Shown one piece after another: positions 8,207 to 28,893 of a stretch of DNA of 64,000 bases. This DNA is from Amycolatopsis methanolica 239 (GTDB taxonomy: Bacteria > Actinomycetota > Actinomycetes > Mycobacteriales > Pseudonocardiaceae). The stretch is from contig NZ_CP009110.1 in NCBI RefSeq assembly GCF_000739085.1, forward strand, positions 1,116,001 to 1,180,000, read 5' to 3'. The notes beneath the pieces are model-generated. The model was not told the DNA's origin. It worked only from the letters and a program-made list of their open reading frames with translations, and did no database searches. The stretch's first letter is position 1. Each line of letters opens with the position of its first letter. Position numbers and translations under genes: made by a program.

Positions 8207-8235
8207 GTGTGGCCCGAGTACGGAGGTACGAACAG

Positions 8236-9448: not shown

Positions 9449-11005
9449 ATGCGGATTGGGATCGATGTCGGTGGCACTAACACCGACGCGGTGCTGCTGG
9501 ACGGCGAGGTCGTGCTCGCCGACGTGAAGACCGCGACCAGTGCCGATGTCACCACTGGCATCGTCAACGCGCTGGAGGCACTGCGCCGGCAGCGCCCGTT
9601 CGACCCCGCCGGGGTCCACGCGGTCATGCTCGGCACCACGCACTTCATCAACGCCATCGTCGAAGCGGATCGACTGGCGCCCACCGCGGCGATCCGGCTC
9701 GGCCTGCCCACCACCGCGGCGCTCCCGCCGCTGGTGGAATGGCCGGAACGGCTGGTGCGGGCCATCGGCGGCCAGGCCTACCTGTGTCACGGCGGCCACG
9801 AGTTCGACGGCCGGATCATCTCCCCGCTCAAGCGTTCGGAACTGGTGCGGATCGCCGAGGAGCTCGGCGAGGCCGGCATCCGGTCCATCGCGCTGTCCTC
9901 TGTGTTCAGCCCGGTCAACGCGGAGATGGAGCAGGAAGCCGCGTCGATCCTGCTCGACCAGCTGCCCGACGTGCACATCAGCCTCTCCCACGAGGTCGGC
10001 CGGGTCGGCCTGCTGGAGCGGGAGAACGCCACCATCATCAACGCGTGCCTGCGCGAGCTGGCGGAGCAGATCTGCACCGGTCTCGCGCAGACCCTGGCCG
10101 ACGCCGGGTTCAACGCGCCGCTGTATCTCAGCCAGAACGACGGCACCCTCATGGAGGTCGGCTACGCGCGCGAGTATCCCGTCGCGACCTTCGCCTCGGG
10201 GCCGACCAACTCGATGCGCGGCGCGGCGTTCCTGTCCGGCCTCGGCCACTGCGTCGTGGTCGATGTCGGCGGCACGACCAGCGACGTCGGCATCCTGGAG
10301 AGCGGGTTCCCCCGGGAGGCGACCGCCGAGGTCAGTGTCGGGGGAGTGCGCACGAACTTCCGGATGCCCGACGTGCTCTCCATCGGGATCGGCGGGGGCA
10401 GCCGGGTGCGCACCGACGGCGACCTGCCCACGGTCGGGCCGGACAGCGTCGGGTACCGGTTGCGCGAGCAGGCGCGCGTGTTCGGCGGGCCCACGCTCAC
10501 CGCGACCGACATCGCGGTGGCGGCCGGCATGGCGGACATCGGCGACCGCGCCCGTGTCCGCGACCTCGCCCCCGGCATGGTCCGGGCCGCGGTGGAGACG
10601 ATGACCGCCCAGGTCGCGTCCGCCGTCGACCAGATGCGGACCAGCCCGGAGCCGTTGCCGGTGGTCCTGGTGGGTGGCGGCAGCATCCTGCTCACCGACG
10701 ACTTCCCCGGCGCGACCAAGGTGCACCGGCCCGACCACTACGCCAACGCCAACGCCATCGGTGCCGCGATCGCCCAGATCGGCGGCGAAGTGGACCGGAT
10801 CTTCGGGGTGGAGCCGGGTAAGCGGGACTCGGTACTCGACCAGGCCAAGGAGGAGGCCACCGCGCGGGCGGTCGCCGCCGGTGCCGAGCCGTCGAGTGTA
10901 GAGATCGTGGACGTCGACGAGGTCCCGGTCGCCTACCTGCCCGGCAACGCGACCCGCATCCGGGTGCGCGCGGTGGGCGATCTCGTGCTCACCAGCGACC
11001 GGTGA
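9449..11005 (+). CDS. Hydantoinase/oxoprolinase family protein (HyuA-like A subunit)
   Basis: This 518-residue protein belongs to the hydantoinase/oxoprolinase A family, which uses ATP to open cyclic amides such as hydantoins or 5-oxoproline. The N-terminal ATP-binding segment is RIGIDVGGTNTDAVLLDG, and the second conserved segment is VVVDVGGTTSDVGIL, preceded by GPTNSMRGAAFLSG. It is shorter than fused oxoprolinases, and no HyuB partner gene is present. Instead the next gene is a DUF917 protein, a common neighbour of this subgroup. The ATG at 9449 is preferred over an upstream in-frame start because AGGTAG sits just before it and the family begins here. It opens the operon 9449-15788. The substrate is unknown. 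Confidence 0.9.
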   Translation: MRIGIDVGGTNTDAVLLDGEVVLADVKTATSADVTTGIVNALEALRRQRPFDPAGVHAVMLGTTHFINAIVEADRLAPTAAIRLGLPTTAALPPLVEWPERLVRAIGGQAYLCHGGHEFDGRIISPLKRSELVRIAEELGEAGIRSIALSSVFSPVNAEMEQEAASILLDQLPDVHISLSHEVGRVGLLERENATIINACLRELAEQICTGLAQTLADAGFNAPLYLSQNDGTLMEVGYAREYPVATFASGPTNSMRGAAFLSGLGHCVVVDVGGTTSDVGILESGFPREATAEVSVGGVRTNFRMPDVLSIGIGGGSRVRTDGDLPTVGPDSVGYRLREQARVFGGPTLTATDIAVAAGMADIGDRARVRDLAPGMVRAAVETMTAQVASAVDQMRTSPEPLPVVLVGGGSILLTDDFPGATKVHRPDHYANANAIGAAIAQIGGEVDRIFGVEPGKRDSVLDQAKEEATARAVAAGAEPSSVEIVDVDEVPVAYLPGNATRIRVRAVGDLVLTSDR

Positions 11006-11054
11006 CCCGCAGCCCCGTGACCCGCCTGCTCGCGTACCCGGAAGGACGCCCCTG

Positions 11055-12173
11055 ATGGCCTTCGAACTGACGATCGACCACCTGCCGGACCTGTCGCTGG
11101 GCGCCGCGCTGCTCGGCACCGGCGGCGGCGGTGATCCGCATGCCGGCAGGTTGCTTGCCGCGCAGGCGATCCGGACCAACGGCAACATCACCGTGCTGGA
11201 CCTCGACGACCTCGCCGACGACGACTTCGTGGTACCGACCGCGATGATCGGCGCGCCCAGCGTGCTGGTCGAGCGGATCCCGGCCGGTAACGAACCGGTG
11301 GACGCCCTGCGCGCGCTGGAGCGGCTGCTCGGCCGCACGGCGACCGCCACGATGCCGATCGAGTCGGGCGGGATCAACTCGATGATCCCGCTGTTCGTCG
11401 CGGGCACCGTGGGCCTGCCGGTGGTGGACGGCGACGGGATGGGGCGCGCCTTTCCCGAGCTGCAGATGGAGACCTTCGGCATCTACGGCTGCCCGGGGTC
11501 GCCGCTGGCCATCGCGGACGAGCGCGGGTACAGCGGGATCGTGGACACCGGGCAGGACAACAAGAAGATGGAGAAGTACGCCCGCGCGCTGGCCACCTCG
11601 ATGGGCGGGGTCGGCTACGTCGCCGAGTATCCGATGAGCGGGGCGGACGTGAAGCGCACGGCGATCCCGCGCACGCTGTCGCTGGCCCTGCGCCTCGGGC
11701 GGACCCTGCGCGAGGCCCGCGAGCAGCACCGCGATCCGGTGGAGGCGCTGAGCGAAACGCTCTCGGAGACCCTCTACGAGAGCAGCGGGGTGGTCTTCGA
11801 AGGCAAGGTGATCGACGTACTGCGGAAGACCGACGGTGGATTCACCAAGGGTTCGGCGAAGCTGGTGTCCTTCGACGGCGGGTCCACCTGCCAGATCGAC
11901 TTCCAGAACGAGTTCCTGCTCGCCCGCGTCGACGACCGGCCGGCCATCGTGGTCCCGGACCTGATCACCGTGCTGCACGCGGAAACCGGTGAGCCGATCA
12001 CCGCCGAGCGGCTCCGCTACGGGCACCGGGTCCGGGTGTTCGCCATCGGCACGCCGGAGATCATGCGCACCCCGGAGGCGCTGGACACCTTCGGCCCCCG
12101 CGCGTTCGGCATCGACCTCGATTTCGTTCCGTTCGAACAACTCGCCGCCTCGAAGATCGGGAGTTCGGTATGA
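11055..12173 (+). CDS. DUF917 family protein (S-methylthiohydantoin desulfurase-like)
   Basis: This is a 372-residue DUF917 protein. The family hallmark GAALLGTGGGGDPHAGRLL lies near the N-terminus, followed by the conserved FESGGINS-like segment (here IESGGINS). Members often sit beside HyuA-type hydantoinases. At least one relative has been assigned to desulfurisation of a thiohydantoin, so a role on a five-membered imidazolone or hydantoin ring is plausible but unproven. It follows the HyuA-like gene by 49 bases with GGAAGGA ahead of the ATG. It overlaps the next gene by ATGA, so translation is probably coupled. A paralogue lies at 26279. Confidence 0.85.
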   Translation: MAFELTIDHLPDLSLGAALLGTGGGGDPHAGRLLAAQAIRTNGNITVLDLDDLADDDFVVPTAMIGAPSVLVERIPAGNEPVDALRALERLLGRTATATMPIESGGINSMIPLFVAGTVGLPVVDGDGMGRAFPELQMETFGIYGCPGSPLAIADERGYSGIVDTGQDNKKMEKYARALATSMGGVGYVAEYPMSGADVKRTAIPRTLSLALRLGRTLREAREQHRDPVEALSETLSETLYESSGVVFEGKVIDVLRKTDGGFTKGSAKLVSFDGGSTCQIDFQNEFLLARVDDRPAIVVPDLITVLHAETGEPITAERLRYGHRVRVFAIGTPEIMRTPEALDTFGPRAFGIDLDFVPFEQLAASKIGSSV

Positions 12174-13033
12174 CCGTGACCGAATCCGTGCTGCGCGCGG
12201 AATCCGTATCCGACGCCCTCGCCCGGCTCGCCGAGCTGGGCGAGCACGGCAGGCCGCTGGCCGGGGGAACCTGGGTGCTACGGGCGGGACTGCGCGGCGA
12301 AGACGATCCGTACCGCTACGTCGCGATCGGCGGCATCCCCGAGTTGGCCGAAGTGTCCTATGGGGACGGTGAACTGGGCGTCGGTGCGCTGGTCACGCAC
12401 ACCCGGCTGGCCGAACTGGTCGCCGGGCCGCCGGCCGCCGCACTGGTCGAGGCGGCCCGCGGCTCCGCGTTCCCCCAGGTGCGCAACGTGGCGACGATCG
12501 GCGGGAACCTCGCCGCGATCGGGTTCGCCGAGGCCGACCTGGTGCCCGCGCTGCTCGCCGGGGAGGCCGAGGTCGAGCTGGCCGGCCCGGCCGGCAGGCG
12601 GCGGATACCGGTGGTGGACTTCCTGGCGTGGCGGGAGAAGTCGGCGGGCGAGCTGATCACCACGGTGTTCCTGCCGACTCCCGCCGGCCGCCGGTCCGGG
12701 TTCGCCCGGTTGACCGTGCGCGGCTCGGGGGAGTACCCGATCGCCAACGCCGCGGTGTCGGTCGACCTCGACGCCGAGGGCGCCGTGCGCGCGGCCCGGA
12801 TCGCGGTGGGCAGTGTCGAACCGGTCGCGAAACTCTGCCCGGTCGCTTCGGAATCCTTGGTGGGACACGGGTTCTCCGATCTCGAGGCGATCGAGGAGGC
12901 GGGCCGGATCGCGGCCAGGGAGTGCTCGGCGCGCGACGGTCTGGACGCGCCGGGCTGGTATCGGGCAGAGGTGCTTCCCACGTTGGTGCGCAGGGCGGCC
13001 GCACACGCCACCGGTCAGGAGGACAGCGAATGA
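12170..13033 (+). CDS. Molybdenum hydroxylase FAD-binding subunit (CoxM/XdhB type), set 1
   Basis: This 287-residue medium subunit of a three-subunit xanthine-dehydrogenase-family enzyme carries FAD between the iron-sulfur subunit and the final electron acceptor. The FAD-binding segments are LAGGTWVLRAGL near residue 27 and QVRNVATIGGNLAAIGFAEAD near residue 105. The C-terminal CO-dehydrogenase flavoprotein domain follows. The usual aspartate-proline pattern after GGN is altered (AIGFAEAD instead of a P..D run), so this is a divergent member. It overlaps its neighbours by four bases on each side (ATGA), fitting one polycistronic unit. Confidence 0.9.
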   Translation: MTVTESVLRAESVSDALARLAELGEHGRPLAGGTWVLRAGLRGEDDPYRYVAIGGIPELAEVSYGDGELGVGALVTHTRLAELVAGPPAAALVEAARGSAFPQVRNVATIGGNLAAIGFAEADLVPALLAGEAEVELAGPAGRRRIPVVDFLAWREKSAGELITTVFLPTPAGRRSGFARLTVRGSGEYPIANAAVSVDLDAEGAVRAARIAVGSVEPVAKLCPVASESLVGHGFSDLEAIEEAGRIAARECSARDGLDAPGWYRAEVLPTLVRRAAAHATGQEDSE

Positions 13034-13500
13034 AATGCTCGTTCACGCTCAACGGCAGGGCGGTCGAGGCCGAGATCGACGGCCTGACCCCGTTGCTCCG
13101 GCTGGTCCGTGACCACGCCGGTACCGGCACCAAGCTCGGCTGCGGGGAAGGCCGCTGCGGTGCGTGCACCGTGCTGGTGGACGGCGAGCCCGTGGCGTCC
13201 TGCCTGTACCCGGCGGCGAACGTCGAGGGCAGGCAGGTGCGGTCGATCGAGTCGATCGCGGCGCCGGACGCGCCGCTCTCGCCGGTCCAGGACGCGCTGC
13301 TCGACGGCGGGGCGGTCCAATGTGGAGCGTGCATCCCTGGCGTGGTGATGACGCTGACCGCGTTGCTGGAGAAGGAAAACCGGCCCTCGGAGGAGCGGGT
13401 GCGCACCGAACTGGTGGGCAACATCTGCCGGTGCACCGGCTACCACAAGATCGTGGAGTCGGCGCTGGCCGTGACCACCGCGAGCGAGGAGCCGGTATGA
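13030..13500 (+). CDS. Molybdenum hydroxylase 2Fe-2S subunit (CoxS/XdhC type), set 1
   Basis: This 156-residue small subunit holds two [2Fe-2S] clusters. The plant-ferredoxin-like cluster ligands are in LGCGEGRCGACTV and the following SCLYP. The second cluster is bound by QCGACIPG and NICRCTGYH. All eight cysteines are present. It passes electrons from the molybdenum centre to FAD. The ATG overlaps the TGA of the FAD subunit gene, and its own stop overlaps the start of the large subunit gene. Confidence 0.95.
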   Translation: MKCSFTLNGRAVEAEIDGLTPLLRLVRDHAGTGTKLGCGEGRCGACTVLVDGEPVASCLYPAANVEGRQVRSIESIAAPDAPLSPVQDALLDGGAVQCGACIPGVVMTLTALLEKENRPSEERVRTELVGNICRCTGYHKIVESALAVTTASEEPV

Positions 13501-15788
13501 CCGGGGTGATCGGGCAGAACCACCGCCGGGCGGACGGCGAGGCGAAGGTCCGCGGTACCGCGATCTACGGCATGGACTACACCGAGCGGGCGGCCCTGCA
13601 CGCCAAGGTGCTGCGGGCCGAGGTACCGGCCGCGCGCGTCGTCCGGCTGGACACGAGCAAGGCGCAGGCCATGCCCGGGGTGTGGGCGGTGGCCACCGCG
13701 GCCGACGCGCCCGGCCTGTCCGGGATGATGGCGCTGAAGGACCAGCGGGTGTTCGCGGACGGGGTCATCCGCTACATCGGGGAGCCGATCGCGGCGGTGG
13801 CGGCGGAGACGCCGAGGCAGGCGCGGGCCGCACTGGCCGCCATCGAGCTGGAACTCGAGCCGCTGGAGCCGGTGTTCGACCTGGACGAGGCGCTGCGGCC
13901 GGAAACCCGGTTGGTCCATCCGGACTGGGAGAGCTACCAGACGATGGTGCCGGCGCCGCGGGAGGGCAACCTCGCCTGGCAGGCCAGCACCGAGCGCGGG
14001 GACGTGGACGCGGTGTTCGCCACCGCCGCGATCGTGGTGGAGGACGAGTTCCGCTCCCCGCGCCAGCACCAGTGCTCGATCGAACCGCACGCCGCGGTGG
14101 CCCGGTACGAGCAGGGCCGCTACATCGTGCACACCCCGACCCAGTTCCCGTTCCTGGTCCGGGGCCGGGTCGCCGAGCTGCTGGGCGTGCGCCCGTCCGA
14201 GATCCGGATCGTGGTGCCTACCATCGGCGGCGGATTCGGCGGCAAGCTCGACTCGATGCTCGAACCGCTGGCCTGCGTGCTGGCCCGTAAGGCAGGCCGC
14301 CCGGTGCGGATCGTCAACACCAGGGCCGAGGAGATGGCCACCGCCGCGCCGAGGGAGAACGCCGTCGTGCGGCTGCGGACCGCGGTGTCCGAGGACGGCG
14401 AGATCCTCGCGCAGGAGGCGGAGGTGCTCTCCGACAACGGCGCCAACTCCAGCGGGGAGACGGTCGCCTGCGCCAACATCCCGCCGCTGGTGCTCGGCGG
14501 CACCTACCGGATCCCGAACGCGCGCTACGTCAGCAAGGTAATCTACACCAACACCCCGCCGACCGCGGCGTTCCGGGGCGTGAACGGGCCGTACTGCGTG
14601 TTCGCCCAGGAGATGCACCTCGACCACATCGCCCGCGAGCTCGGGATGGACCGGCGGGAGATCCGGCGGCGCAACGTTCTCAAGGCGGGCGAGGCCATGG
14701 TCAACGGCCAGGTGCTCGACGACGCCGTGCTCACCGACGCGCTGGACACGGTGGAGCGGATGTCCGGCGAGGCAACGCCTTCGGGCAACCCCAAGGCGTT
14801 GCGGGGCACCGCGGTCGTCCCGCTGACCTGGATCACCAACCCCGGCCCGTCCGGCGCGAACGTGAAGCTGGACGAGGACGGCTCGATCGTGGTCACCGCG
14901 GCCGCCGCGGAGATCGGCACCGGCGCGGTGGCCACCGGGATCCGGCAGCTCGTCGCCGCCGAGTTCGGCGTGCCGTTCGAGCGGGTGGTGGTCACCCCGC
15001 CGGACACCGACGCTGCCGGGTACGACCACGGCGCCCAGGGCAGCCGCACGACGGTCGGCATGGGCAACGCCGCGCTCGACGCGTCGGCCAAGGTGCGCGA
15101 CCAGATCCTGGACGTGGCCGCCGGCCTGCTCGAAGCCGACGTGGCCGACCTCGAACTCGCCGACGGCGCGGTCGGCATCAGCGGGGTGCCGGACCGCAAG
15201 GTCACGCTCGCCGAGGTGGCCGGTGCGGCGCTGTTCACCACCGGGCCGATCGCGGCGGCCGGTTCGTTCGCGGCGCCACCTATCCCGTTCGACGCCGGCT
15301 GCATGGTCGGCGCCCTGTTCACCAACTTCTTCGCCGCGACCTACCACGCGCACTTCGCCGAGGTGGAGGTCGACCCGGACACCGGTAAGGTCACCGTGCT
15401 CCGGTACGCGGTGGCCCAGGACGTGGGCAAGGCGATCAACCCGCAGATGATCGAGGGACAGATCCACGGCGGCGTGGTGCAGGGCCTCGGGTTCGCGCTG
15501 TACGAGAACCTGCGGCTGGACGGCGGCCTGGTCCTGGATCAGGGACTGGAGTCCTACCGGCTGCCGACCGCGCTGGACGCGCCGCCGATCGACATCCAGC
15601 TCCTGGAGAACCCGTACCCGCACGGCCCGCTCGGGGCCAAGGGCGTGGCCGAACCTCCGCTGGTGCCGGTGGCCGCGGTAATCGGGTGCGCGGTGGCCGA
15701 CGCGATCGGCGTGCCGGTGCGGTCCCTGCCGCTGAGTCCCTTCGACGTACTGGCCGCGCTCCGCGACAAGCGGCGCGACGAGGTCTGA
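13497..15788 (+). CDS. Molybdenum hydroxylase large (molybdopterin-binding) subunit, set 1
   Basis: This 763-residue catalytic subunit of the xanthine dehydrogenase/aldehyde oxidase family hydroxylates a carbon, usually next to a ring nitrogen, using water. Molybdopterin-binding stretches include TIGGGFGGKLDS, TAAFRGVNGPYCVF and AQGSRTTVGMG. The catalytic glutamate is expected in LGAKGVAEPPL near the C-terminus. The active-site loop reads AFRGVNG and lacks the cysteine of form I CO dehydrogenase (AYRCSFR), so it is not a CO dehydrogenase. The substrate is unknown, although the hydantoinase-like gene in the same operon suggests an N-heterocycle. The start overlaps the upstream stop (ATGA). Confidence 0.92.
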   Translation: MTGVIGQNHRRADGEAKVRGTAIYGMDYTERAALHAKVLRAEVPAARVVRLDTSKAQAMPGVWAVATAADAPGLSGMMALKDQRVFADGVIRYIGEPIAAVAAETPRQARAALAAIELELEPLEPVFDLDEALRPETRLVHPDWESYQTMVPAPREGNLAWQASTERGDVDAVFATAAIVVEDEFRSPRQHQCSIEPHAAVARYEQGRYIVHTPTQFPFLVRGRVAELLGVRPSEIRIVVPTIGGGFGGKLDSMLEPLACVLARKAGRPVRIVNTRAEEMATAAPRENAVVRLRTAVSEDGEILAQEAEVLSDNGANSSGETVACANIPPLVLGGTYRIPNARYVSKVIYTNTPPTAAFRGVNGPYCVFAQEMHLDHIARELGMDRREIRRRNVLKAGEAMVNGQVLDDAVLTDALDTVERMSGEATPSGNPKALRGTAVVPLTWITNPGPSGANVKLDEDGSIVVTAAAAEIGTGAVATGIRQLVAAEFGVPFERVVVTPPDTDAAGYDHGAQGSRTTVGMGNAALDASAKVRDQILDVAAGLLEADVADLELADGAVGISGVPDRKVTLAEVAGAALFTTGPIAAAGSFAAPPIPFDAGCMVGALFTNFFAATYHAHFAEVEVDPDTGKVTVLRYAVAQDVGKAINPQMIEGQIHGGVVQGLGFALYENLRLDGGLVLDQGLESYRLPTALDAPPIDIQLLENPYPHGPLGAKGVAEPPLVPVAAVIGCAVADAIGVPVRSLPLSPFDVLAALRDKRRDEV

Positions 15789-15846
15789 GAGTTCCGAGAG
15801 TTCCTGCCCAGGACCGCGACACGGCGGACGAGGTGGTGATGGTGCG

Positions 15847-18636: not shown

Positions 18637-19293
18637 TCAACGGAGGGCGGGGCGGCGCAGGATGGCGGCGATCGCGGCCAGAGCCAGCAGCCCCAGTACC
18701 GCCGGCGCGAGCCGCTTGAGCACCGGGAAACCCGCGACACCGAAGACGTCGATCGCGTCGTTGCCCGCGACGGAGGGGCCCGCCGCCGGTCCCGCGGCCG
18801 GCCGGGAGTCACCCGTGCTCGCCGCCGGAGCCGGGGCCGGGCCGGCGGTGGCGCCGCTCAGCTGGCCGGAGAGCCGGGTGGCGAACTCGTCCAGCAGCTT
18901 GTTGCTGACCTCCTGCAGCACCCCGCGGCCGAACTGCGCGGGCCTCCCGGTGATGGTGAAGTCGGTGATCACGTGCACGGCGGTCTGGCTGCCCTGCTCG
19001 GCCAGCGTCGCGGTGACGGTCGCCTTCGCGGTCCCGGCGCCCTTCTTCTCCTTGCCCGCCGCGGAGATCACCACGCGGTGGGCGTCGGCGTCCTTCTCGG
19101 TGAACGTGGCGTTGCCGGCGTAGGTCAGCGCCATCGGCCCGAGCTTGACCTTCACCGTGCCGGTGAACTCCTCGCCGTGCACCTCGCCGAGGGTGGCGCC
19201 CGGCATGCACGGCGCGACCCGCTCCACGTCGAGCAGCGCCTGCCACGCCTGCTCGACCGGGACGGGAACGACGAAGTTGTGTTCGAGCCGCAT
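18637..19293 (-). CDS. CoxG-like SRPBCC protein with C-terminal membrane anchor
   Basis: This 218-residue protein resembles carbon monoxide dehydrogenase subunit G. The SRPBCC-fold domain spans about residues 1-150 (HNFVVPVPVEQAWQALLD; CMPGATL; VKVKLGPMALTYAG). An Ala/Pro-rich linker follows, and then a C-terminal hydrophobic helix (APAVLGLLALAAIAAIL) with arginines behind it. In Cox systems CoxG tethers the enzyme to the cytoplasmic membrane, and the anchor here fits that. It lies between moaA (27 bases upstream) and the LLM oxidoreductase gene. It could serve either or both molybdenum hydroxylases of the island. Confidence 0.88.
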   Translation of the reverse strand: MRLEHNFVVPVPVEQAWQALLDVERVAPCMPGATLGEVHGEEFTGTVKVKLGPMALTYAGNATFTEKDADAHRVVISAAGKEKKGAGTAKATVTATLAEQGSQTAVHVITDFTITGRPAQFGRGVLQEVSNKLLDEFATRLSGQLSGATAGPAPAPAASTGDSRPAAGPAAGPSVAGNDAIDVFGVAGFPVLKRLAPAVLGLLALAAIAAILRRPALR

Positions 19294-20535: not shown

Positions 20536-22908
20536 TTGGTTGTGCAGAGCAAACCGCCTGGCGTCATCGGCGCCAAGGTGCAACGGAAGGAAGACCCGCG
20601 GCTGATCACCGGGCGGGGTCAGTTCCTGGACGACGTCGCCCTGCCCGGCATGCTCGAAGCGGCGGTGCTGCGCAGCCCGTTCGCGCACGCCCGCATCACG
20701 CACATCGACGTGAGCGAGGCCCGCGCGCTGCCGGGTGTGTTCGACGTGATCGTCGGTTCCGACGTGCTCGAAGCCACGAAGATGTCGCAGCCGGTGATCT
20801 GGCAGCTCGTCCCCGACCAGCTCATGCCCGAGGGCCGTGTGCTGGCCACCGACCGGGTCCGGTTCGTGGGCCAGCCGGTCGCCGCGGTCGTGGCGACCAA
20901 CCGCTACGTCGCCGAGGACGCCCTCGAACTGATCGCGGTCGAGTACGAGGAGCTACCCGCCGTCGTCTCGCTGGAGGACGCGCTCGCCGAGGGCGCGCCG
21001 AAGCTGTACGACGAGTGGCCGGACAACGTCAGCTGCCGCACCACGATCCCGAAGGGGGACGTGGACAAGGCGTTCGCCGAGGCCGAGGTCGTGGTCACCA
21101 AGACCTTCCGGCACGGCCGCCAGATGGGCACCCCGCTGGAGACCCGAGGCTGCGTGGCCACCTGGGACCCGTTCACCGACCGGCTCGACATCTGGATGTC
21201 GAACCAGTCGCCGAACCTCGCCCGCGACCTGCTCGGCGACGTGCTGGGCATTCCGGGCGACAAGGTACGCGTGCGCGTGCCCGACGTCGGTGGCGGGTTC
21301 GGCAACAAGTTCGACTTCTACGCCGAAGAGGTCGTCGCCTCGATCCTGTCCAAGCGCACCGGGCGGCCGGTCAAGCTGATCGAGGACCGGCTGGAGAGCT
21401 TCGTGGCCAACGCGCACTCCCGCGAGCAGCGCCTCGACGTCGAGCTGGCGGCCACAAAGGACGGTAAGATCACCGGGCTGCGCTGCACGATCTACGGTGT
21501 GCTCGGCGGTCAGCTCGCCACCGTGGGCATCGGCCCGAACTGGCTGACCGCGGCGATGCTCGGCGGCCCGTACGACATCCCGAACATCGAGGCAAACGTC
21601 GTCGGCGTGGTCACCAACCGCTCGCCGTACGGCTCCTACCGCGGCTGGGGCCAGCCGAAGGCGAACCTGGTGCACGAGCGCATGCTCACCCTGCTCGCGC
21701 GGGAGCTGGACATGGACCCCAACGAGGTCCGGCGCAGGAACCTCATCCCGGAGAAGGCATTCCCGTACCAGAGCGCGGTGTTCGTCTACGACACCGGCCG
21801 GTACCACGACTGCCTGCGGGCGTGTACCGACGCGGTGGCCGAGCGCGGCTGGCACGAGCGCAAGGCGGCCGCCGCGAAGGAGGGCCGCAAGCTCGGCATC
21901 GGCTACTCGTTCCACGTGGAGATCACCGCGTTCGGCCCGAGCCGGATGTTCAACTCCGCCGGCCTGCAGCACTCCTCCTTCGACGAGGAGGTGGTGCGGA
22001 TGGACTCCACCGGCAAGGTCACCGTCTACACCGGACAGACGGCGCTCGGCCAGGGCGTGCAGACGGCGCTCGCCCAGGTCGCCGCCGACTCGCTCGGTGT
22101 GCCGTTCGAGGACGTGAGCGTGGTGTACGGCGACACCGACAGCTGCCCCTACACGGGGTACGGCACCGGGGCCAGCCGGGCCGCGTCGGTGGGTGGCGCC
22201 GCGGTGCTCACCGCGTCGAAGCGGCTCAAGGAGAAGCTCGTGCGGATCGCGGCGCACATGCTCGAAGCCGCACCGGAGGACCTGGTCGTCGAAAACGGCA
22301 CGATCAGCGTCGCCGGCGCACCGGGCCGCTCGGTCAGCACCGCCGAGATCGGCGACGCGGCCTACCGCAGGCTCGACGGCAAGCTCCCGCCCGGCGAGTC
22401 GCCTACGCTGGAGGAGCGCGAGGTCTTCGACCCGGAGAACGTCGCGTTCTCATACGGCTGCACCGCGATCCTGGCCGAAGTGGACCCGGAGACCGGGCAC
22501 GTCCAGCTGCTGGACTACCTGATGGCGCACGACTGCGGCACCGTGATCAATCCGACCATTGTGGACGGTCAGATCCACGGCGGGGCGGCGCAGGCGATCG
22601 GCGGCGCGCTGTACGAGGAACTGATCTACGGCGAGGACGGGCAGATCCAGACCACCACGTTCATGGACTACCTGTTGCCCACCGCCGCCGAGATTCCGCC
22701 GTTCGAGGTGCTGCACATGGAGACCCCGTCCGACCACATCCCCGGCGGGTTCAAGGGCGTCGGAGAGGGCGGCACGATCGGCGGTGGCGCGGCGATCGCG
22801 GAGGCGATCGAGGACGCGCTGGACGGTCTCGACATCACCATCACCCAGCTGCCGGTGACCCCGCCGCGCCTGCTGGAGCTGATCGAGCGCGCGGGAGGTG
22901 CGGCGTGA
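20536..22908 (+). CDS. Molybdenum hydroxylase large (molybdopterin-binding) subunit, set 2
   Basis: This 790-residue catalytic subunit of the CoxL/xanthine dehydrogenase family has the cofactor-binding segments DVGGGFGNKFDFYAEE, SPYGSYRGWGQPKAN and GYGTGASRAASVGGAA. The catalytic glutamate lies in FKGVGEGGTIGGG near the end. The active-site loop SYRGWGQ resembles form II enzymes and lacks the CO dehydrogenase cysteine, so annotation as CO dehydrogenase would be wrong. The TTG at 20536 is chosen because GGAAGG lies six bases before it; a GTG at 20542 is the alternative. It heads an operon whose genes overlap or nearly touch down to 28893. Confidence 0.92.
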   Translation: MVVQSKPPGVIGAKVQRKEDPRLITGRGQFLDDVALPGMLEAAVLRSPFAHARITHIDVSEARALPGVFDVIVGSDVLEATKMSQPVIWQLVPDQLMPEGRVLATDRVRFVGQPVAAVVATNRYVAEDALELIAVEYEELPAVVSLEDALAEGAPKLYDEWPDNVSCRTTIPKGDVDKAFAEAEVVVTKTFRHGRQMGTPLETRGCVATWDPFTDRLDIWMSNQSPNLARDLLGDVLGIPGDKVRVRVPDVGGGFGNKFDFYAEEVVASILSKRTGRPVKLIEDRLESFVANAHSREQRLDVELAATKDGKITGLRCTIYGVLGGQLATVGIGPNWLTAAMLGGPYDIPNIEANVVGVVTNRSPYGSYRGWGQPKANLVHERMLTLLARELDMDPNEVRRRNLIPEKAFPYQSAVFVYDTGRYHDCLRACTDAVAERGWHERKAAAAKEGRKLGIGYSFHVEITAFGPSRMFNSAGLQHSSFDEEVVRMDSTGKVTVYTGQTALGQGVQTALAQVAADSLGVPFEDVSVVYGDTDSCPYTGYGTGASRAASVGGAAVLTASKRLKEKLVRIAAHMLEAAPEDLVVENGTISVAGAPGRSVSTAEIGDAAYRRLDGKLPPGESPTLEEREVFDPENVAFSYGCTAILAEVDPETGHVQLLDYLMAHDCGTVINPTIVDGQIHGGAAQAIGGALYEELIYGEDGQIQTTTFMDYLLPTAAEIPPFEVLHMETPSDHIPGGFKGVGEGGTIGGGAAIAEAIEDALDGLDITITQLPVTPPRLLELIERAGGAA

Positions 22909-23780
22909 AACCTGCTCCCTTCGACTACGTGCGGGCCGAGTCCGTCGAGCACGCGGTGCACGCACTGACCGGCGGCGACGGGGACGCGAAGGTACTGGCC
23001 GGTGGCCAGAGCCTGGTCCCGCTGCTGTCGATGCGGCTGGCCCGCCCGTCGGTCCTGGTCGACATCAACCAAGTGTCCGACTTGGACTATGTCCGGCTGG
23101 ACGGGGACGTGCTGCGGATCGGCGCGCTGACCCGGCACCGCACGGTGGAGACCTCGCCCGAGGTGGCCCGGCACGTGCCGCTGCTGGTCGACGCGCTGCG
23201 GTATGTGGGGCACGTGACGATTCGCAACCGCGGCACGATCGGCGGCAGCGTCGCGCACTCCGACCCGGCCGCGGAGCTGCCCTCGGTGCTGGTCGCGCTG
23301 GACGGCCGGGTCGTGCTGGAAGGCCCGGACGGCAGGCGGGAGGTCGCCGCGGCGGACTTCTTCGAGGGTTACCTCACCACGGCCGCCGAGCCGGACGAGC
23401 TGCTGACCGAGATCATCGTGCCGGTCTCCCCGCGTGGTACCGGCGTGTGTGTCCAGGAGCAGGCGCGGCGCCACGGCGACTTCGCGCTGGTGGCCGTGTT
23501 CAGCGCGGTGTCGCTGGACGCGGCGGGCAAGGTCGCCGACGTGCGGCTGGGCATCGCCGGGACGAACGCGACCCCGCTGCGGCCCGAACGTGCCGAGTCC
23601 CTGCTCGTCGGTGAATCCCCGAGCGAGCAGGCGATCGCGGCCGCGGCCGCGGCAGCCGCGGCCGCGACCGGCTCGGTCGGGGACATCCATGCCACGGCGA
23701 AGTACCGCACCACCGTCGCCGAAGTACTCACCCGTCGCGCGCTGCAGGGCGCCGTCGCCAACACGAACGGACACCACTGA
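22905..23780 (+). CDS. Molybdenum hydroxylase FAD-binding subunit (CoxM type), set 2
   Basis: This 291-residue FAD subunit is a standard CoxM-like protein. It has FDYVRAESVEHAVHAL at the start, the FAD loop KVLAGGQSLVPLLSMRLARP, and the second FAD segment RNRGTIGGSVAHSDPAAELP. The C-terminal domain includes an unusual run of alanines (around residues 247-256) before the final helices. The GTG start overlaps the TGA of the large subunit gene, and the stop overlaps the ATG of the 2Fe-2S subunit, so expression is tightly coupled. It is more canonical than its counterpart at 12170, which indicates the two sets are not a recent duplication. Confidence 0.94.
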   Translation: MKPAPFDYVRAESVEHAVHALTGGDGDAKVLAGGQSLVPLLSMRLARPSVLVDINQVSDLDYVRLDGDVLRIGALTRHRTVETSPEVARHVPLLVDALRYVGHVTIRNRGTIGGSVAHSDPAAELPSVLVALDGRVVLEGPDGRREVAAADFFEGYLTTAAEPDELLTEIIVPVSPRGTGVCVQEQARRHGDFALVAVFSAVSLDAAGKVADVRLGIAGTNATPLRPERAESLLVGESPSEQAIAAAAAAAAAATGSVGDIHATAKYRTTVAEVLTRRALQGAVANTNGHH

Positions 23781-24259
23781 TGGCCACCACAGTCCGGATC
23801 TCGGTCACCGTCAACGGCAGGACGTTCCAGGCGGACTGCGAACCGCGCAAGACGCTCGCGGACTTCCTGCGCCAGGACTGCGGCGGCACCGGTGTGCACC
23901 TCGGCTGCGAACACGGGGTGTGCGGCGCCTGCACCGTCCTGCTCAACGGCCGCACCGTCCGATCCTGCTGCCTGCTCGCGGTGCAGGCGGACGGCGCGGA
24001 GATCACCACCATCGAGGGCCTGGCCACCGGCGGCGAACTGCACCCGATGCAGCGGGCCTTCGCCAACAATCACGGCCTGCAGTGCGGATTCTGCACGCCG
24101 GGCATGATCCTGACCGCCTGCGAGCTGCTGGCGGACAACCCGGCGCCGAGCGACGAGGAGATCAGGGAGGGCATTTCCGGGAACCTGTGCCGGTGCACCG
24201 GATACCACGGCATCGTGAACTCAATCCGGGAGGTGGCCGATCAGCGCGCCGGAAAGTGA
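23780..24259 (+). CDS. Molybdenum hydroxylase 2Fe-2S subunit (CoxS type), set 2
   Basis: This 159-residue small subunit carries two [2Fe-2S] clusters. The ligands are in [17 protein letters not shown] with the following SCC, and in [10 protein letters not shown] and [10 protein letters not shown]. All are present. It completes the second three-subunit enzyme in the order large-medium-small, which is the reverse of set 1. Its start codon shares one base with the upstream stop. Confidence 0.96.
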
Positions 24260-24263
24260 TCCG

Positions 24264-25148
24264 GTGCCGGCCGGCGGACTTCCCTTCGCCTCGGTCGACG
24301 AGGTCGAGAAGGCACTGCGGGAGGCCGGTTACCTGCCCGACCGGGGGCTGGCGACCGGGATCCATCTGGCGCTGGGCATGCGGCGCCCGCTGCTGCTGGA
24401 AGGCGAGCCCGGCGTCGGCAAGACCGACGTCGCCAAGCGGCTCGCCGGAGTGCTCGGGCTGGATCTCATCCGCCTGCAGTGCTACGAGGGAATCGACGCG
24501 GCACAGGCGATCTACGACTGGGACTACAGCCGGCAGTTGCTGCACGCCCGCCTGACCGCCGAGACGGGCGGTCCCGGCCGGGTGGGCACCGCCGATCTCT
24601 ACGGTCCCGAGTTCCTGCTCGAGCGGCCGCTGCTGCGGGCCGTGCGGACGGGCGGAGGATGCCTGCTGCTGATCGACGAACTCGACCGCGCCGACGACGA
24701 GTTCGAGGCGTTCCTGCTGGAGATCCTGTCGGAGCACGCGGTGACGATCCCGGAGATCGGCACCGTGTGCTCCGCCGAGCCGCCCGCCATCGTGATCACC
24801 TCCAACCGCACCCGGGAGCTGCACGACGCGCTCAAGCGCCGCTGCGTCTACCACTGGATCGAGTTCCCCACCGTGGAAAGGGAAACCGAGGTCGTCCGGA
24901 TCCGGGTGCCCGAAGCGGACGACCGGCTCGCCCGGTCGATCGCCGAGACGGTGGCCCGGTTGCGTGAGCTCGACCTGGCGAAACGACCGGGGATCGCGGA
25001 GACCGTGGACTGGGCGCGCGCGTTGACCATGATCGGGGCGCGCGAACTGAACCCCGAGCTGGCCGACGCCACCGTGGGCGTGGTGATCAAGGGGCGGGAG
25101 GATCTCGGCACGGTCCGCCAGGCGCTGGGTGAGATCGTCGGTGGCTGA
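24264..25148 (+). CDS. MoxR/CoxD-type AAA+ ATPase
   Basis: This 294-residue MoxR-family ATPase has Walker A in LLEGEPGVGKTDVAKRLA, Walker B in LLLIDELDRADDEFEAFLLE, and the sensor stretch ITSNRTRELHDALKRRC. In Cox systems CoxD with the VWA protein CoxE helps insert or mature the metal centre of the molybdenum enzyme. Here the pair follows a non-CO-dehydrogenase set, so a general maturation role is likely. The GTG start lies four bases after the CoxS stop, and the end overlaps the VWA gene by eight bases. Confidence 0.93.
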   Translation: MPAGGLPFASVDEVEKALREAGYLPDRGLATGIHLALGMRRPLLLEGEPGVGKTDVAKRLAGVLGLDLIRLQCYEGIDAAQAIYDWDYSRQLLHARLTAETGGPGRVGTADLYGPEFLLERPLLRAVRTGGGCLLLIDELDRADDEFEAFLLEILSEHAVTIPEIGTVCSAEPPAIVITSNRTRELHDALKRRCVYHWIEFPTVERETEVVRIRVPEADDRLARSIAETVARLRELDLAKRPGIAETVDWARALTMIGARELNPELADATVGVVIKGREDLGTVRQALGEIVGG

Positions 25149-26274
25149 GCCGTCCGGTGTGCCGGAGCCCGCGCGGGACCTGGTCGGGTTCGTGGCCGAG
25201 CTGCGCCGGCACGGGGTCCACGTCGGACAGGGCAGGACGATCGAGTTCTGCCGGGCCGCCACCCTGGTCGAACCACGCGACCTCTACTGGTCTGGCCGGC
25301 TCACCCTGATCGGCCGGGCCGAGGACCTGCCGCGCTACGACAAGGCGTTCGTGACCTACTTCGCCCGGCTGCCCGAGCAGGCGGAGAGCCGGAACGAGCA
25401 GGAGGAGGCGTATCCCGGCGGGCCGAGCGATCTGGTGTCCGGGGAGGACGACAGTGCCGAGGAGGAGGGCCTCGCCAGCGAGGTGGAGTTGCTGGCCCAC
25501 AAGGACTTCGCCGAGCTGTCCGAGGCCGAGCTCGCGAAGGTCGCCGCGCTCATCGAACGGTTGCGGTTGCGGGTCCCGCCGCGCCGGGTCCGCCGCTGGC
25601 GCCGCGCGCCGTCGGGGCCGATCGACCTGCGGCGCACGGTGCGCCGGGCACTCCGGCAGGGTGGCGAAGCCGTCGAGCTGCGGCGCCGGCGACGGGTGCG
25701 CAAGCCGCGCCGGCTGATCCTGCTGCTCGATGTGTCGCACTCGATGCGGGACTACGCCCGGTCGCTGCTCGTCTTCGCGCACTCGGCGCTGCGTGGCCGG
25801 CATCCGATGGAGGTGTTCTGTTTCGGCACCCGCCTGACCAGGCTCACCCGGGTGCTGTCCACCTCCTCCGTGGAGACCGCGCTGGCCGCAGCCGCCGATC
25901 GCGTGCTGGACTGGGACGGCGGCACCAGGATCGGCCCGTCGCTGAAGACGTTCCTCGACACCTTCGGGCGGGCCGGGCCGGCCAGGGGAGCGATCGTGGT
26001 GCTCTGCTCCGACGGCTTGGAGCAGGGCGACCCCGCGGTGCTCGGTACCCAGATGGAGCGGCTGTCGAAACTCGCGTACCGGATCATCTGGCTGAACCCG
26101 CTCAAGGGCGGGCTCGACTACCAGCCGCTGGCCCGCGGCATGCGGGCCGCGCTGCCGCACATCGATGTCTTCTCCAGCGGGCACAACTTCGCCTCGCTTG
26201 AGCACCTGGCCGAAGTTCTCTCCGAAGCCGGCGGTTCGCGGTCCGGGGACCGGCCCCGGCGGAACCTAGACTGA
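25141..26274 (+). CDS. VWA-domain protein, CoxE type
   Basis: This 377-residue CoxE-like protein has a basic, arginine-rich middle (RRVRRWRRAPSGPIDLRR) before a von Willebrand A domain. The metal-ion-dependent adhesion site is LLLDVSHSM (DxSxS). The later site residues are in WDGGTRIG and VVLCSDGLEQGD. It is expected to work with the upstream MoxR ATPase as a chaperone for the molybdenum hydroxylase. The GTG at 25141 is preferred because the protein begins to look family-like there; an in-frame GTG at 25129 would add four residues. It overlaps the MoxR gene by eight bases. Confidence 0.9.
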   Translation: MAEPSGVPEPARDLVGFVAELRRHGVHVGQGRTIEFCRAATLVEPRDLYWSGRLTLIGRAEDLPRYDKAFVTYFARLPEQAESRNEQEEAYPGGPSDLVSGEDDSAEEEGLASEVELLAHKDFAELSEAELAKVAALIERLRLRVPPRRVRRWRRAPSGPIDLRRTVRRALRQGGEAVELRRRRRVRKPRRLILLLDVSHSMRDYARSLLVFAHSALRGRHPMEVFCFGTRLTRLTRVLSTSSVETALAAAADRVLDWDGGTRIGPSLKTFLDTFGRAGPARGAIVVLCSDGLEQGDPAVLGTQMERLSKLAYRIIWLNPLKGGLDYQPLARGMRAALPHIDVFSSGHNFASLEHLAEVLSEAGGSRSGDRPRRNLD

Positions 26275-26278
26275 GCCT

Positions 26279-27331
26279 ATGTGGCAGCTGGGCGCGGACG
26301 ACGTCGACGACCTCGCGCGTGGTGCGGAGCTGCTGGGCGGCGGCGGTGGCGGCGAGGTGCGGGTGGCCACGCTGCTGGCCAAGCAGCTGTTGCGGCGCGA
26401 GCCGCTCACCGTGCTGTCCCCGGCGGAACTGCCCGGCGACGCACGCGCCGTCCCGATCGGACTGATCGGCTCGGTCACCGTCTTCGAGGAGCGGTTCACC
26501 GCCGGTACCGAGTTCGGCGCGGTCGTCGGCGCGCTCGAACGGCACACCGGCGAGGAGGTGTCCGCGGTGCTCGCGTTCGAAGCGGCGGGGGTCAACCTCC
26601 TGCTGCCGGTGGTGGCCGCCGCGCGGCTCGGGGTGCCGCTGCTGGACGCCGACGGGGAAGGCCGGGCGCTGCCGAACCTCGACCAGACGGTGTTCACCCT
26701 GGCGCGGCTGCCGGTGACCCCGATGGTGCTGGCCGACGCGCTGATCGGGACGGTGATCATCGACGCGCGCGAGGCCGCGCAGGCGGAGCGGCTCGCGCGG
26801 GCCGGGGCGGTCGCGATGGGCGGCTGGGCGCTGGTCGGGTTCGCCCCGCAGCGCGCCCGCGACCTGGACCGCTTCGCCATCCGGAACTCGATCTCCCTGG
26901 CCAAGGGCGTGGGAAAGTTGTTACGGCGGAAGAAGCTCGACGAGCTGCTGGACACCTACGGCGGGCGGATCCTGTTCCGGGGCACCATCGTGGAAACCGA
27001 CCGGCGTTACGGCAACGGGTACGGCAGGGGAACCCTGGTGCTGCAGCATGCCGAGGACAGCGAGCGGTTCCTGCACGTGGAGTTCCAGAACGAGTACTAC
27101 CTCGCGGTGGAGAACGGCGAGCTCCGCGCGTCCGTGCCGGACGTGATCTGCCTGCTCTCCTCGCCCGGCATGAACCCGTTGCGCACCGAGCACGTGCGCA
27201 ACGGCCTGACCGTCACGGTGCTCGCCCTGCCGTGCGCCCCGGCCTGGCGTACCTCGGCCGGGCTCGGCCTCGCCGGGCCGCGCGCGTTCGGGTACGACGT
27301 CGACTACACCGTCCCGAACGGGGTCGCGTAA
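26279..27331 (+). CDS. DUF917 family protein, second copy
   Basis: This 350-residue DUF917 protein is clearly diverged from the copy at 11055. It keeps the glycine run (AELLGGGGGGEV) and the FEAAGVN segment in place of IESGGIN. The C-terminal half carries RGTLVLQHAEDSERFLHVEFQNEYYLAV, similar to the FQNEFLLA segment of the other copy. TAGACT at 26267-26272 lies six bases before the ATG, so it may also have its own leaderless transcript within the operon. It overlaps the following PucR gene by one base. Having one copy in each hydroxylase operon suggests the two proteins act on different intermediates. Confidence 0.85.
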   Translation: MWQLGADDVDDLARGAELLGGGGGGEVRVATLLAKQLLRREPLTVLSPAELPGDARAVPIGLIGSVTVFEERFTAGTEFGAVVGALERHTGEEVSAVLAFEAAGVNLLLPVVAAARLGVPLLDADGEGRALPNLDQTVFTLARLPVTPMVLADALIGTVIIDAREAAQAERLARAGAVAMGGWALVGFAPQRARDLDRFAIRNSISLAKGVGKLLRRKKLDELLDTYGGRILFRGTIVETDRRYGNGYGRGTLVLQHAEDSERFLHVEFQNEYYLAVENGELRASVPDVICLLSSPGMNPLRTEHVRNGLTVTVLALPCAPAWRTSAGLGLAGPRAFGYDVDYTVPNGVA

Positions 27332-28893
27332 TGGAACAGGAGCGGGGCGACCCACCCGTGCACGTCCGCAACCTGATCGCCGGGAAGTGCCTCGGCACCG
27401 CCGAACTGGTCGGCGGGGAGTCCGGATTGGACACCCCGGTGGAGTCGGTCACCGTGGTGTCCTCAGCCGACGCGTCGACCGGCTTGCCCATCGGCGCCCT
27501 GATGGTGGCCATGCTGATCGACGACTCGGCGGTCCAGGCGGAGGTCCTGCTGCGCCGGGCCGCGGCGGCGCGCGCGGCCGCGGTCGTGCTGGCGACCTCG
27601 CGCCGCCTGCTGCTGTCCACCAAGAAGCTCGCGGACCGGCTGGGCATCGCGCTGTTCACCGTGCGCGAGTCCGAGGCCGTCGGGGTCGCCTGGCGGGTGG
27701 AACAGGTCGTCCGGGAGCCGTCGCGGGCGTTCCTGCCGGTGCTGGCGCGGGTGATCACGCGGTTGCAAGTCCCGGCGCAGAGCGCCGCGGAGGTGGTCGA
27801 GGTGGTCAGCACGGAGCTGGGGTGTACGGTCGCGCTGGTCGGGCCGGACGGCAGCACGCTGGCCGGGAAGGCGCCACCGGACATCGACGTGGAGCTGTTC
27901 GCGATGCCGATCGCGCACACGGTGGTGGTGGACGACGGTTTCCGGCTCTACTCGCCGATCGTGGTGGAGACCCCGGTGCGCGCCGAATCGTGGCTGGTCG
28001 CGGCGACGCCGGCGTGGCACCGGTCGTGGGTGTCGGTGGCCCATCAGGTGTGCACGGTGGCCGGGCTCGCCGCCCGGTCCTGGGTGCTGCGGGGGCGCCT
28101 GCTCGCCGAGGCGGAGGCGCGCGACCACAGCGTCCTGCTCGCCGAGTTGCTGGAGGGTCAGCAGGTGCTCTCGCAGGGCACCGTGGAGCGCGCGCTCAAG
28201 GCCGGATGGCGGCTCGACGGCTGGCACACCGGTATCCATCTGCGCGAGGTGGAGTCGAGCACCGCGCGATGGCGGCCGACCGGGGAGGTCCGCGACCGGC
28301 TCCGGGCGCAGGGGATCGACGGGCCGGTCGTCGAACGCAGCGACGGCTGGGTCTGCTGGGTCACCGAAGAACGGGAACCGTCGTCGCAGTCCTATCGGGA
28401 CATCACCGCCCGGCTGGCGCGCGCGGTGGAGGAGCTGACCGAGACCGTGCGGGTGGTGGCCGGGGTCGGCCGGCCGTGCGCCGGGGCGTCCGGCATCGCG
28501 CGGAGCCTCGGGGAGGCGCACGAAGCGGCGCTGTTCGCCGGTACCGGCCGGGACGCCAGCCCGGTGGAGCACATCGACCGGCTCGGCCTGCGGCGGCTGC
28601 TGTCCGGGTGGTACCACTCGGACGCGTTCCGGAGCTACGCGTACTCGCTGCTGCAGCCGTTGCTGGGGGACGACGACGGCGCGGAGCTGCTGGCGACGCT
28701 GGCGGTGTACCTGGACCGCGAATCGTCCGCGACGTCGACCGCCGCGGCGCTGGGGGTGCACCGCAACACGGTCAGCTACCGCATCGGCCGGGTGGAACGG
28801 CTGCTGTCGGTCAACCTGGCCAACGCCGATGACCGGCTGGTACTGCAACTCGCCTGCCGTGTCGTCGAACCGGACACCGGGGCGCACCGGTGA
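27331..28893 (+). CDS. PucR family transcriptional regulator 2
   Basis: This 520-residue PucR-type regulator has an N-terminal ligand-sensing domain (residues about 10-130, with LIAGKCLGTAELVGGESGLD and VTVVSSADAS). The C-terminal helix-turn-helix is STAAALGVHRNTVSYRIGRVERLLSVNL. Its start overlaps the DUF917 stop (TAATG), so it is made with the second operon. It differs throughout from the regulator at 15847. The two probably control the two halves of the pathway, perhaps at the GGTCA/TGACC sites; this is inference. Confidence 0.9.
   Translation: MEQERGDPPVHVRNLIAGKCLGTAELVGGESGLDTPVESVTVVSSADASTGLPIGALMVAMLIDDSAVQAEVLLRRAAAARAAAVVLATSRRLLLSTKKLADRLGIALFTVRESEAVGVAWRVEQVVREPSRAFLPVLARVITRLQVPAQSAAEVVEVVSTELGCTVALVGPDGSTLAGKAPPDIDVELFAMPIAHTVVVDDGFRLYSPIVVETPVRAESWLVAATPAWHRSWVSVAHQVCTVAGLAARSWVLRGRLLAEAEARDHSVLLAELLEGQQVLSQGTVERALKAGWRLDGWHTGIHLREVESSTARWRPTGEVRDRLRAQGIDGPVVERSDGWVCWVTEEREPSSQSYRDITARLARAVEELTETVRVVAGVGRPCAGASGIARSLGEAHEAALFAGTGRDASPVEHIDRLGLRRLLSGWYHSDAFRSYAYSLLQPLLGDDDGAELLATLAVYLDRESSATSTAAALGVHRNTVSYRIGRVERLLSVNLANADDRLVLQLACRVVEPDTGAHR

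Follow-up and report, generated by a model that had tools for sequence, protein, structure and literature searches.

A 64,000-nucleotide stretch of the Amycolatopsis methanolica 239 genome (NZ_CP009110.1, positions 1,116,001 to 1,180,000; hereafter the window) carries, at window positions 9449-28893, a 16-gene island that probably directs the catabolism of a nitrogen-containing ring via molybdenum (Mo) hydroxylation and ATP-dependent ring opening. We consider the chances evenly balanced that this catabolism includes a reduction with the cofactor F420, and we place the explanation as a whole, in which the island is a horizontally acquired catabolic set, at the same level. Our most specific proposal is a tentative one and, in our judgment, has the chances somewhat against it: the island would encode an aerobic actinomycete pathway in which an N-heterocycle is hydroxylated, then reduced by F420H2 and finally opened at the expense of ATP, and its HyuA and DUF917 proteins would form a new two-component ATP-dependent lactam hydrolase that replaces HyuAB and PxpABC next to Mo hydroxylases of one and the same subfamily.

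The island and its recurrence in other genomes

All 16 genes are open across 9449-28893, which runs from the ATG start of hyuA to the stop of pucR2. An earlier note, made from the sequence of the window, had described these genes as one contiguous block in three coupled units. Pfam searches, translations and a check of the starts confirmed the block, and the three units are a fair description given that the intergenic gaps within units A and B are at most 58 bases and most gene pairs overlap or almost touch. Unit A (plus strand) comprises hyuA, DUF917-1, FAD1, FeS1, Mo1 and pucR1; a divergent block (minus strand) holds moaA, coxG and the gene of an LLM oxidoreductase; and unit B (plus strand) comprises Mo2, FAD2, FeS2, a coxD-like AAA gene, coxE, DUF917-2 and pucR2. 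The individual features are as follows.

9449-11005, plus strand: HyuA-type ATPase, short (PF05378, 6.6e-37; PF01968, 2.2e-35 over 1-173 of 291), with two DxGGT phosphate motifs
9416, plus strand: alternative hyuA start (GTG)
11055-12173, plus strand: DUF917/S-Me-THD-like protein 1 (PF06032, PF20906)
12170-13033, plus strand: FAD subunit of hydroxylase 1 (PF00941, PF03450)
13030-13500, plus strand: 2Fe-2S subunit of hydroxylase 1 (PF00111, PF01799), with both cysteine sets
13497-15788, plus strand: Mo1, molybdopterin large subunit of hydroxylase 1 (PF01315, PF02738, PF20256)
15847-17475, plus strand: PucR-type regulator 1 (PF13556; PF07905 under its cut-off)
17607-18596, minus strand: LLM oxidoreductase (PF00296), Mer-like, probably F420-dependent
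18637-19293, minus strand: CoxG-like protein (PF06240)
19321-20301, minus strand: MoaA, molybdopterin synthesis (PF04055, PF06463)
20536-22908, plus strand: Mo2, molybdopterin large subunit of hydroxylase 2 (PF01315, PF02738, PF20256)
20536 (TTG) or 20542 (GTG), plus strand: uncertain start of Mo2
22905-23780, plus strand: FAD subunit of hydroxylase 2 (PF00941, PF03450)
23780-24259, plus strand: 2Fe-2S subunit of hydroxylase 2 (PF00111, PF01799)
24264-25148, plus strand: CoxD-like AAA ATPase (PF07728; NF047784 at 275.8 bits against a cut-off of 475)
25129-26274, plus strand: CoxE-like VWA protein (PF05762, 1.1e-55)
26279-27331, plus strand: DUF917/S-Me-THD-like protein 2 (PF06032, PF20906)
27331-28893, plus strand: PucR-type regulator 2 (PF13556, PF17853, PF07905; frame of 26281-28893)

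The gene set goes beyond chance, since nearly the same set occurs in other genera. A scan of 84,980 species genomes for Mo1, sensitive to close relatives only, returned five loci with identities of 64-73%, belonging to Streptomyces carpinensis, Phytoactinopolyspora limicola, Haloechinothrix halophila, H. aidingensis and Pseudonocardia kujensis. Four of these loci preserve the order hyuA-DUF917-FAD-FeS-Mo1, whereas in S. carpinensis it is disrupted. Unit B comes next, in inverted orientation, in P. limicola and H. halophila, with LLM and coxG beyond it, so that nearly the whole set is present in both, moaA being missing from the H. halophila stretch. The genomes G290 and G322 have both units without coxD and coxE. 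The earlier note had allowed that these genes might never be found together elsewhere; searching actinomycete genomes for the same gene set showed that it recurs across genera. It would also have been refuted by an existing description of the block with a known substrate, and it recognized no described pathway with exactly these genes; in agreement, our literature searches found no account of the set in open PMC papers.

Of 390 genomes of the family, 21 have Mo1 (E up to 1e-160), and all 18 congeners lack it; across the class, it was found in 2 of 394 drawn genomes, one of which is the window's own. Mo2 (E up to 1e-240) was found in 54 of the 390 family genomes: 19 of the 21 Mo1 genomes have it, compared to 35 of the 369 others (Fisher 3.6e-16, kinship not corrected). 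We tabulated 28 stretches of 12.9-95 kb, chosen for Mo1 or Mo2 with the exception of a second locus in the window's own genome, with G591 and L010 omitted as duplicates. Stretches were fetched for 13 of the 20 other Mo1 family genomes, leaving out G226, G292, G315, G318, G329, G331 and G335 as well as the second Mo1 sites of G290 and G339. The 17 other Mo1 stretches (15 genomes) contained HyuA with DUF917 in 16 cases and an LLM relative in 15; four had coxD with coxE, these being also the ones with XdhC, and two had moaA. By these counts, the core consists of HyuA, DUF917, Mo1, Mo2 and LLM, to which the Cox helpers and moaA are not always added. The Mo1 and Mo2 genes lie no more than 0.6 kb apart in five stretches (G307, G339, G293, G316 and G286b).

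A frame of 534-648 amino acids recurs at four loci. None of three copies that we tested matched a Pfam family; it may be a shadow frame, and we dropped it. Mce/MlaE-type uptake genes adjoin the island in H. aidingensis (L093-L094) and H. halophila (L085), hinting at an apolar substrate unless they are mere neighbors.

Lactam hydrolase genes accompany relatives of the first hydroxylase

Both hydroxylases have the makeup of the xanthine oxidase family, with a Mo large subunit, a FAD subunit and a small subunit for two 2Fe-2S clusters, and both [2Fe-2S] cysteine sets are present in each small subunit. The large-subunit motif with the Glu that we take to be the catalytic residue is found in Mo1 and Mo2 alike (20 of 20 Mo1 rows and 22 of 22 Mo2 rows in our alignments). 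The best PDB match of Mo1 is the alpha subunit of 4-hydroxybenzoyl-CoA reductase (1rm6, 320 bits), and that of Mo2 is quinoline 2-oxidoreductase (1t3q, 590 bits), ahead of CoxL at 533 bits; these are the nearest solved relatives, whose substrates may differ. Mo1 missed the equivalog cut-off for 4-hydroxybenzoyl-CoA reductase (503.3 of 994.55). Both proteins fell below that for xanthine dehydrogenase (XdhA; Mo1 446.8 and Mo2 456.6 of 780), and the pucD score of Mo1 was 408.4 of 783.65.

The product of the first hydroxylase is suggested by the neighbors of its relatives on plasmids. The 12 closest plasmid relatives of Mo1 share 44.5-46.6% identity with it, and we viewed nine of them (eight annotated, one unannotated by tblastn; H38, H39 and H42 were left out). 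ATP-dependent lactam hydrolase genes lie within 9 kb of the Mo1 relative in all nine records: eight have HyuA and HyuB, and a Diaphorobacter plasmid has PxpA, carboxyltransferase-type and biotin carboxylase genes. No such genes lay within 9 kb of more distant Mo hydroxylases (33-36%) in a control set of four annotated records out of 14 listed. A PxpA set accompanies Mo2 relatives in two of five cases (Thermomicrobium and Rubrobacter) and was not seen beside those of Azospirillum, Halorientalis and Dinoroseobacter. Because lactam hydrolase genes stand near its plasmid homologues, Mo1 probably makes a lactam, as the Mo1-subfamily hydroxylases probably do in general. The simple reading is that varied ATP-dependent openers serve Mo1-type enzymes, and the opener in the island would be HyuA with DUF917.

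HyuA and DUF917 as a candidate lactam hydrolase

The island HyuA has the phosphate motifs of the HyuA/HyuB family, DVGGTNTD at 17 and DVGGTTSD at 283, and two D.GGT motifs were present in 23 of 24 aligned HyuA rows. Both ATP-motif aspartates that are important in caprolactamase are retained; according to a study of that enzyme, mutants of these aspartates form less product, and it is the second subunit, CapB, that contains the metal site (PMC8453981). For the HyuB subunit, which bears the metal-binding tetrad, the scanned island genes gave no match to PF02538 (E up to 0.001). The HyuA type assigned in the earlier note is supported, and to it we add the pairing with DUF917 and the lack of a HyuB match.

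HyuA adjoins DUF917 in the island, and of 30 DUF917 stretches of 4 kb from the family genomes, which partly overlap and include the window's own, 29 also contain a HyuA relative. The DUF917 proteins exceeded the cut-offs (27) of both Pfam domains, with 217.4 and 190.4 bits for THD1 and 175.1 and 150.5 bits for THD2. The Pfam/NCBIfam name of this family now comes from thiohydantoin desulfurases, and the best NCBIfam models for both island proteins are the two desulfurases, whose equivalog cut-offs were missed at least fourfold (99.8 of 450 and 90 of 440 for protein 1; 68.2 and 58.5 for protein 2). Residues common to ten DUF917 sequences include E103, N108, D125, D127, R131, E173, Q284-N285-E286 and D302. 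A hydantoinase role has been suggested for DUF917 from sequence and structure comparison, and the family is enriched near hydantoin-related genes, according to PMC11055893. In open PMC literature, we found no tested joint function for DUF917 with a short HyuA.

The pair also occurs apart from Mo hydroxylases. Four plasmid or replicon records carry DUF917 with HyuA: the NBC_01309 pair is found with a cytosine permease, the Aureimonas and R. brockwellii pairs with an Asp/Glu racemase and an ABC transporter, and the Nonomuraea pair with an NCS1 permease. The window's own genome has a second locus at 1.320-1.329 Mb (L081, L082) with a HyuA (69%), three DUF917 genes, a PucR gene, a cytosine-permease-like NCS1 transporter and a class V aminotransferase that scores as cysteine desulfurase-like. 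DUF917 relatives of 59-63% go with this second locus in 10 of the 18 congeners.

An F420-dependent reduction probably belongs to the pathway

The LLM oxidoreductase belongs to PF00296, and its six best PDB matches are all methylenetetrahydromethanopterin reductases (Mer), three of them labeled F420-dependent. In the table of 28 stretches, a gene for FGD, the F420-reducing glucose-6-phosphate dehydrogenase, was present (at least 66% identity) in 10 of the 11 stretches with an LLM at 60% identity or more and in none of the 17 others; in P. limicola, the LLM and FGD genes are about 19 kb apart. Both FGD proteins that we tested passed the equivalog cut-off, and a 33% match of the FGD probe in the own second locus was not counted. 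A CofH-type gene is also present in the stretches of H. halophila, H. aidingensis and G274. FGD makes F420H2, which favors a reductase over an oxidase role for the LLM protein. A reductive F420 step probably belongs to the pathway. The earlier note had proposed two hydroxylations and a ring opening; the hydroxylases and the HyuA-type protein are indeed kept together elsewhere, but the probable F420 reduction would extend the pathway beyond those steps. In the window's genome, FGD and a CofH-type gene lie elsewhere. A second FGD-like gene is found there in two pieces, at 1.8705-1.8715 Mb.

The island lies in an insertion between glnE and glnA

The 16 genes of the earlier note are part of a larger unit, of about 6.35-30.2 kb in window coordinates, whose nature as an insertion it had missed. 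The host genome is a single contig of 7.24 Mb. In blastn comparisons with stretches of eight congeners, homology stops at 6253-6347 and restarts at 30205-30220, defining an insert of 23.6-24.0 kb that is not at this site in those congeners. The nearest congener, G017, has flanks 97-99% identical and shares one further block of 108 bases (6462-6569). The associated features are as follows.

6348-30204, strand not assigned: strain-specific insertion carrying the island, flanked by glnE and glnA (blastn against eight congener stretches)
6428-9419, plus strand: eroded left end (partial profile matches)
29393-29788, plus strand: right end, with a piece of a broken IS4/5-type transposase (PF13340, E 1.7e-4, 22.2 bits, cut-off of 34.3 not reached)

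The eroded left end holds an NMT1 binding-protein fragment, a piece of an ABC permease, the C-terminal fragment of an aldehyde dehydrogenase and alcohol dehydrogenase domains split over two different frames. The absence of a transporter and of FGD from this copy could represent losses.

The distance between glnE and glnA is 24.4 kb here (window 5822-30217) and 0.57-12.9 kb in 18 other genomes of the genus. Because this gap varies across the genus (0.57 to 24.4 kb in 19 genomes), the junction appears to take up inserts and is likely an insertion hot spot. Absence from the same site in close kin and a sporadic distribution mark the island as acquired, and G+C does not distinguish it (0.69-0.73 in 2-kb windows from 8 to 28 kb; flanks mostly 0.66-0.74). 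The trees of Mo1, Mo2, LLM and HyuA are not identical, and the nearest rows to the window sequences come from other genera. We name no donor, as no starred clade includes the window sequence in the Mo1 and Mo2 trees. Plasmid carriage was considered and rejected, as neither Mo1 nor Mo2 had a plasmid match of at least 60%. Farther along the window, two tRNA-Met genes and a tmRNA are located at 50765-51326 and 61519-61889.

Weighing the proposed pathway against other explanations

Several observations weigh against the pathway that we propose. F420 use by the LLM protein is suggested by its family; the other three of its six best PDB matches are not labeled F420-dependent, it misses the NCBIfam Mer equivalog cut-offs (151 of 276 and 147.6 of 348.7), and the window is the sole stretch among the 11 with a close LLM that has no FGD nearby. 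The placement of DUF917 in the position of HyuB is read from adjacency. A model of DUF917-1 (pLDDT 86.7) had a sole PDB match at E up to 0.001, the uncharacterized 2o3i, and the fold therefore gives no mechanism; the HyuA model was poor (pLDDT 58.4) and was not used. The nine plasmid records are partly near copies, most of the Rhizobium ones among them, and represent about four lineages, and their gene tables are incomplete, making absence weaker than presence. A Mo1 relative (48%) in G145b lacks HyuA, DUF917 and LLM. Five viewed stretches have Mo2 without any other part, and Mo2, LLM and FGD occur without HyuA and DUF917 in G145a, G160, G296 and G022. The four plasmid or replicon stretches with DUF917 and HyuA have no Mo hydroxylase, nor does the fetched stretch of the second locus, from which it follows that the pair also works without one, at least in the former. 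As Mo2-LLM-FGD and HyuA-DUF917 each occur apart, separate modules are possible.

This last point leads to the first of several rivals, which are not all mutually exclusive nor all exclusive of the pathway proposed here. The island could hold two independent modules side by side, with Mo1, HyuA and DUF917 oxidizing and opening one ring and Mo2, LLM and the helpers acting on another substrate. Each unit has its own PucR regulator, unit B is inverted in relatives, and the four stretches with Mo2, LLM and FGD but neither HyuA nor DUF917 have M20, DUF1028 and alpha/beta hydrolase genes instead. Mo2 is nevertheless found in 19 of the 21 Mo1 genomes, and the two genes are separated by 0.6 kb or less in the five stretches named above, so we regard independent modules as a real but lesser possibility. 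At the Mo2-LLM-FGD loci themselves (L106, L107, L105 and L120, in four genomes), the M20 hydrolase, DUF1028 and alpha/beta hydrolase genes are accompanied by a PucR gene, and these M20-type modules may be a second ring-opening version. The substrate could also be nonaromatic, with a cyclic imine or iminium oxidized to a lactam that is then opened, in parallel to the oxidation of the nicotine iminium to cotinine. The 5-oxoprolinase-type ATP-dependent lactam hydrolase genes beside Mo1 and some Mo2 homologues, an aminotransferase on the Aureimonas plasmid and the lack of a ring dioxygenase among the scanned island genes would fit this. Two Mo hydroxylases and an F420-type reductase exceed the needs of one imine oxidation, however, and Mo2 is nearest to quinoline 2-oxidoreductase among solved structures; we consider a nonaromatic substrate unlikely. 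Of the N-heterocycle that the earlier note had named as substrate, a nitrogen-containing ring remains likely; that ring may be aromatic, and a cyclic imine would fit too.

The remaining candidates are familiar routes that we rejected: CO dehydrogenase, the standard purine route and the ergothioneine route. The PucR genes suggest purine catabolism, and the earlier note had drawn that connection; a form of the xanthine/urate route could even be reductive, given that PMC12507026 describes a reductive urate pathway with a xanthine dehydrogenase-type Mo enzyme and hydrolytic ring opening, together with a putative F420 LLM reductase in Chloroflexota. Such a role is improbable here, as Mo1 missed both the XdhA and the pucD cut-offs, Pfam found no SsnA-type amidohydrolase or uricase among the 16 genes, the uricase is elsewhere in the genome at 1.645 Mb, and the HyuA of that paper is IPR011778, a family other than PF01968. 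Breakdown of ergothioneine or a thiohydantoin would follow from the desulfurases being the best NCBIfam models for both DUF917 proteins; we consider it very improbable in view of their low scores and of the absence of any recognizable Pfam match to an ergothionase or thiourocanate hydratase among the 16 genes. It is more doubtful still that Mo2, together with CoxD, CoxE and CoxG, works as an aerobic CO dehydrogenase, although the Cox-type helpers and Mo2 scores of 620.7 and 596.5 bits against CO dehydrogenase models would speak for it. Those scores do not reach the cut-offs of 950 and 991.15, the best PDB match of Mo2 is quinoline 2-oxidoreductase rather than CoxL, and the Cu-binding cysteine loop, in the pattern that we assumed for CO dehydrogenase, is present in none of the 22 Mo2 rows.

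A model of the pathway and its relation to known systems

We read the reactions, their order and the substrate class of the proposed pathway from the gene content, motifs, co-inheritance and insertion observed. The Mo2 and Mo1 enzymes would place oxygen onto ring carbons adjoining nitrogen, giving a cyclic lactam, and the Mer-like LLM protein would use F420H2 to saturate a C=C or C=N bond in one of the intermediates. The HyuA ATPase may then phosphorylate the lactam and so activate it, while DUF917, acting where HyuB otherwise would, would complete its hydrolysis and open the ring. CoxD, CoxE, CoxG and MoaA would help to supply the hydroxylases with cofactor, to mature them or to dock them at the membrane, and each unit would be under the control of one of the two PucR proteins. 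The exchange of HyuAB, PxpABC-type and HyuA-DUF917 genes near related Mo hydroxylases gives the frequent DUF917-HyuA pair a testable function. If the F420 step is right, an F420H2-dependent step joins the breakdown of nitrogen-containing rings in aerobic actinomycetes and offers enzymes to open lactams and N-heterocyclic pollutants.

The island has partial counterparts in several known systems, whose features are given here as in the cited papers. It shares CoxD-, CoxE- and CoxG-type helpers with the cox clusters of aerobic CO dehydrogenase (PMC4240915) and differs from them in that Mo2 lacks the CO dehydrogenase cysteine loop and falls below the cut-offs. With the anaerobic nicotinate pathway (PMC9304392), it would share the logic of hydroxylating a ring, partly saturating it and opening it hydrolytically, using a different hydrolase and with no tie to nicotinate. 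The reductive uric acid pathway (PMC12507026) likewise has a xanthine dehydrogenase-type Mo enzyme, a PF00296 putative F420 reductase and hydrolytic opening, and a further likeness is that some unit B relatives come with an M20 hydrolase; that F420 LLM-type reductase was predicted in 2025 in Chloroflexota clusters with the Mo enzyme. The island, in contrast, is found in actinomycetes and has two Mo hydroxylases and no YgfK, and HyuA-DUF917 replaces SsnA and the IPR011778 HyuA. The DUF917 proteins are in the same Pfam family as the proposed hydantoinase (PMC11055893) and the thiohydantoin desulfurases of NCBIfam, whereas those of the island are paired with an ATPase and Mo hydroxylases and do not reach the desulfurase cut-offs. 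Finally, the island differs from caprolactamase CapAB and the HyuA-HyuB 5-oxoprolinase family (PMC8453981) in its short HyuA, the lack of a detected HyuB and the DUF917 neighbor; it resembles them in a HyuA with both ATP phosphate motifs, and the reaction expected to be common to both is the ATP-dependent opening of a cyclic amide.

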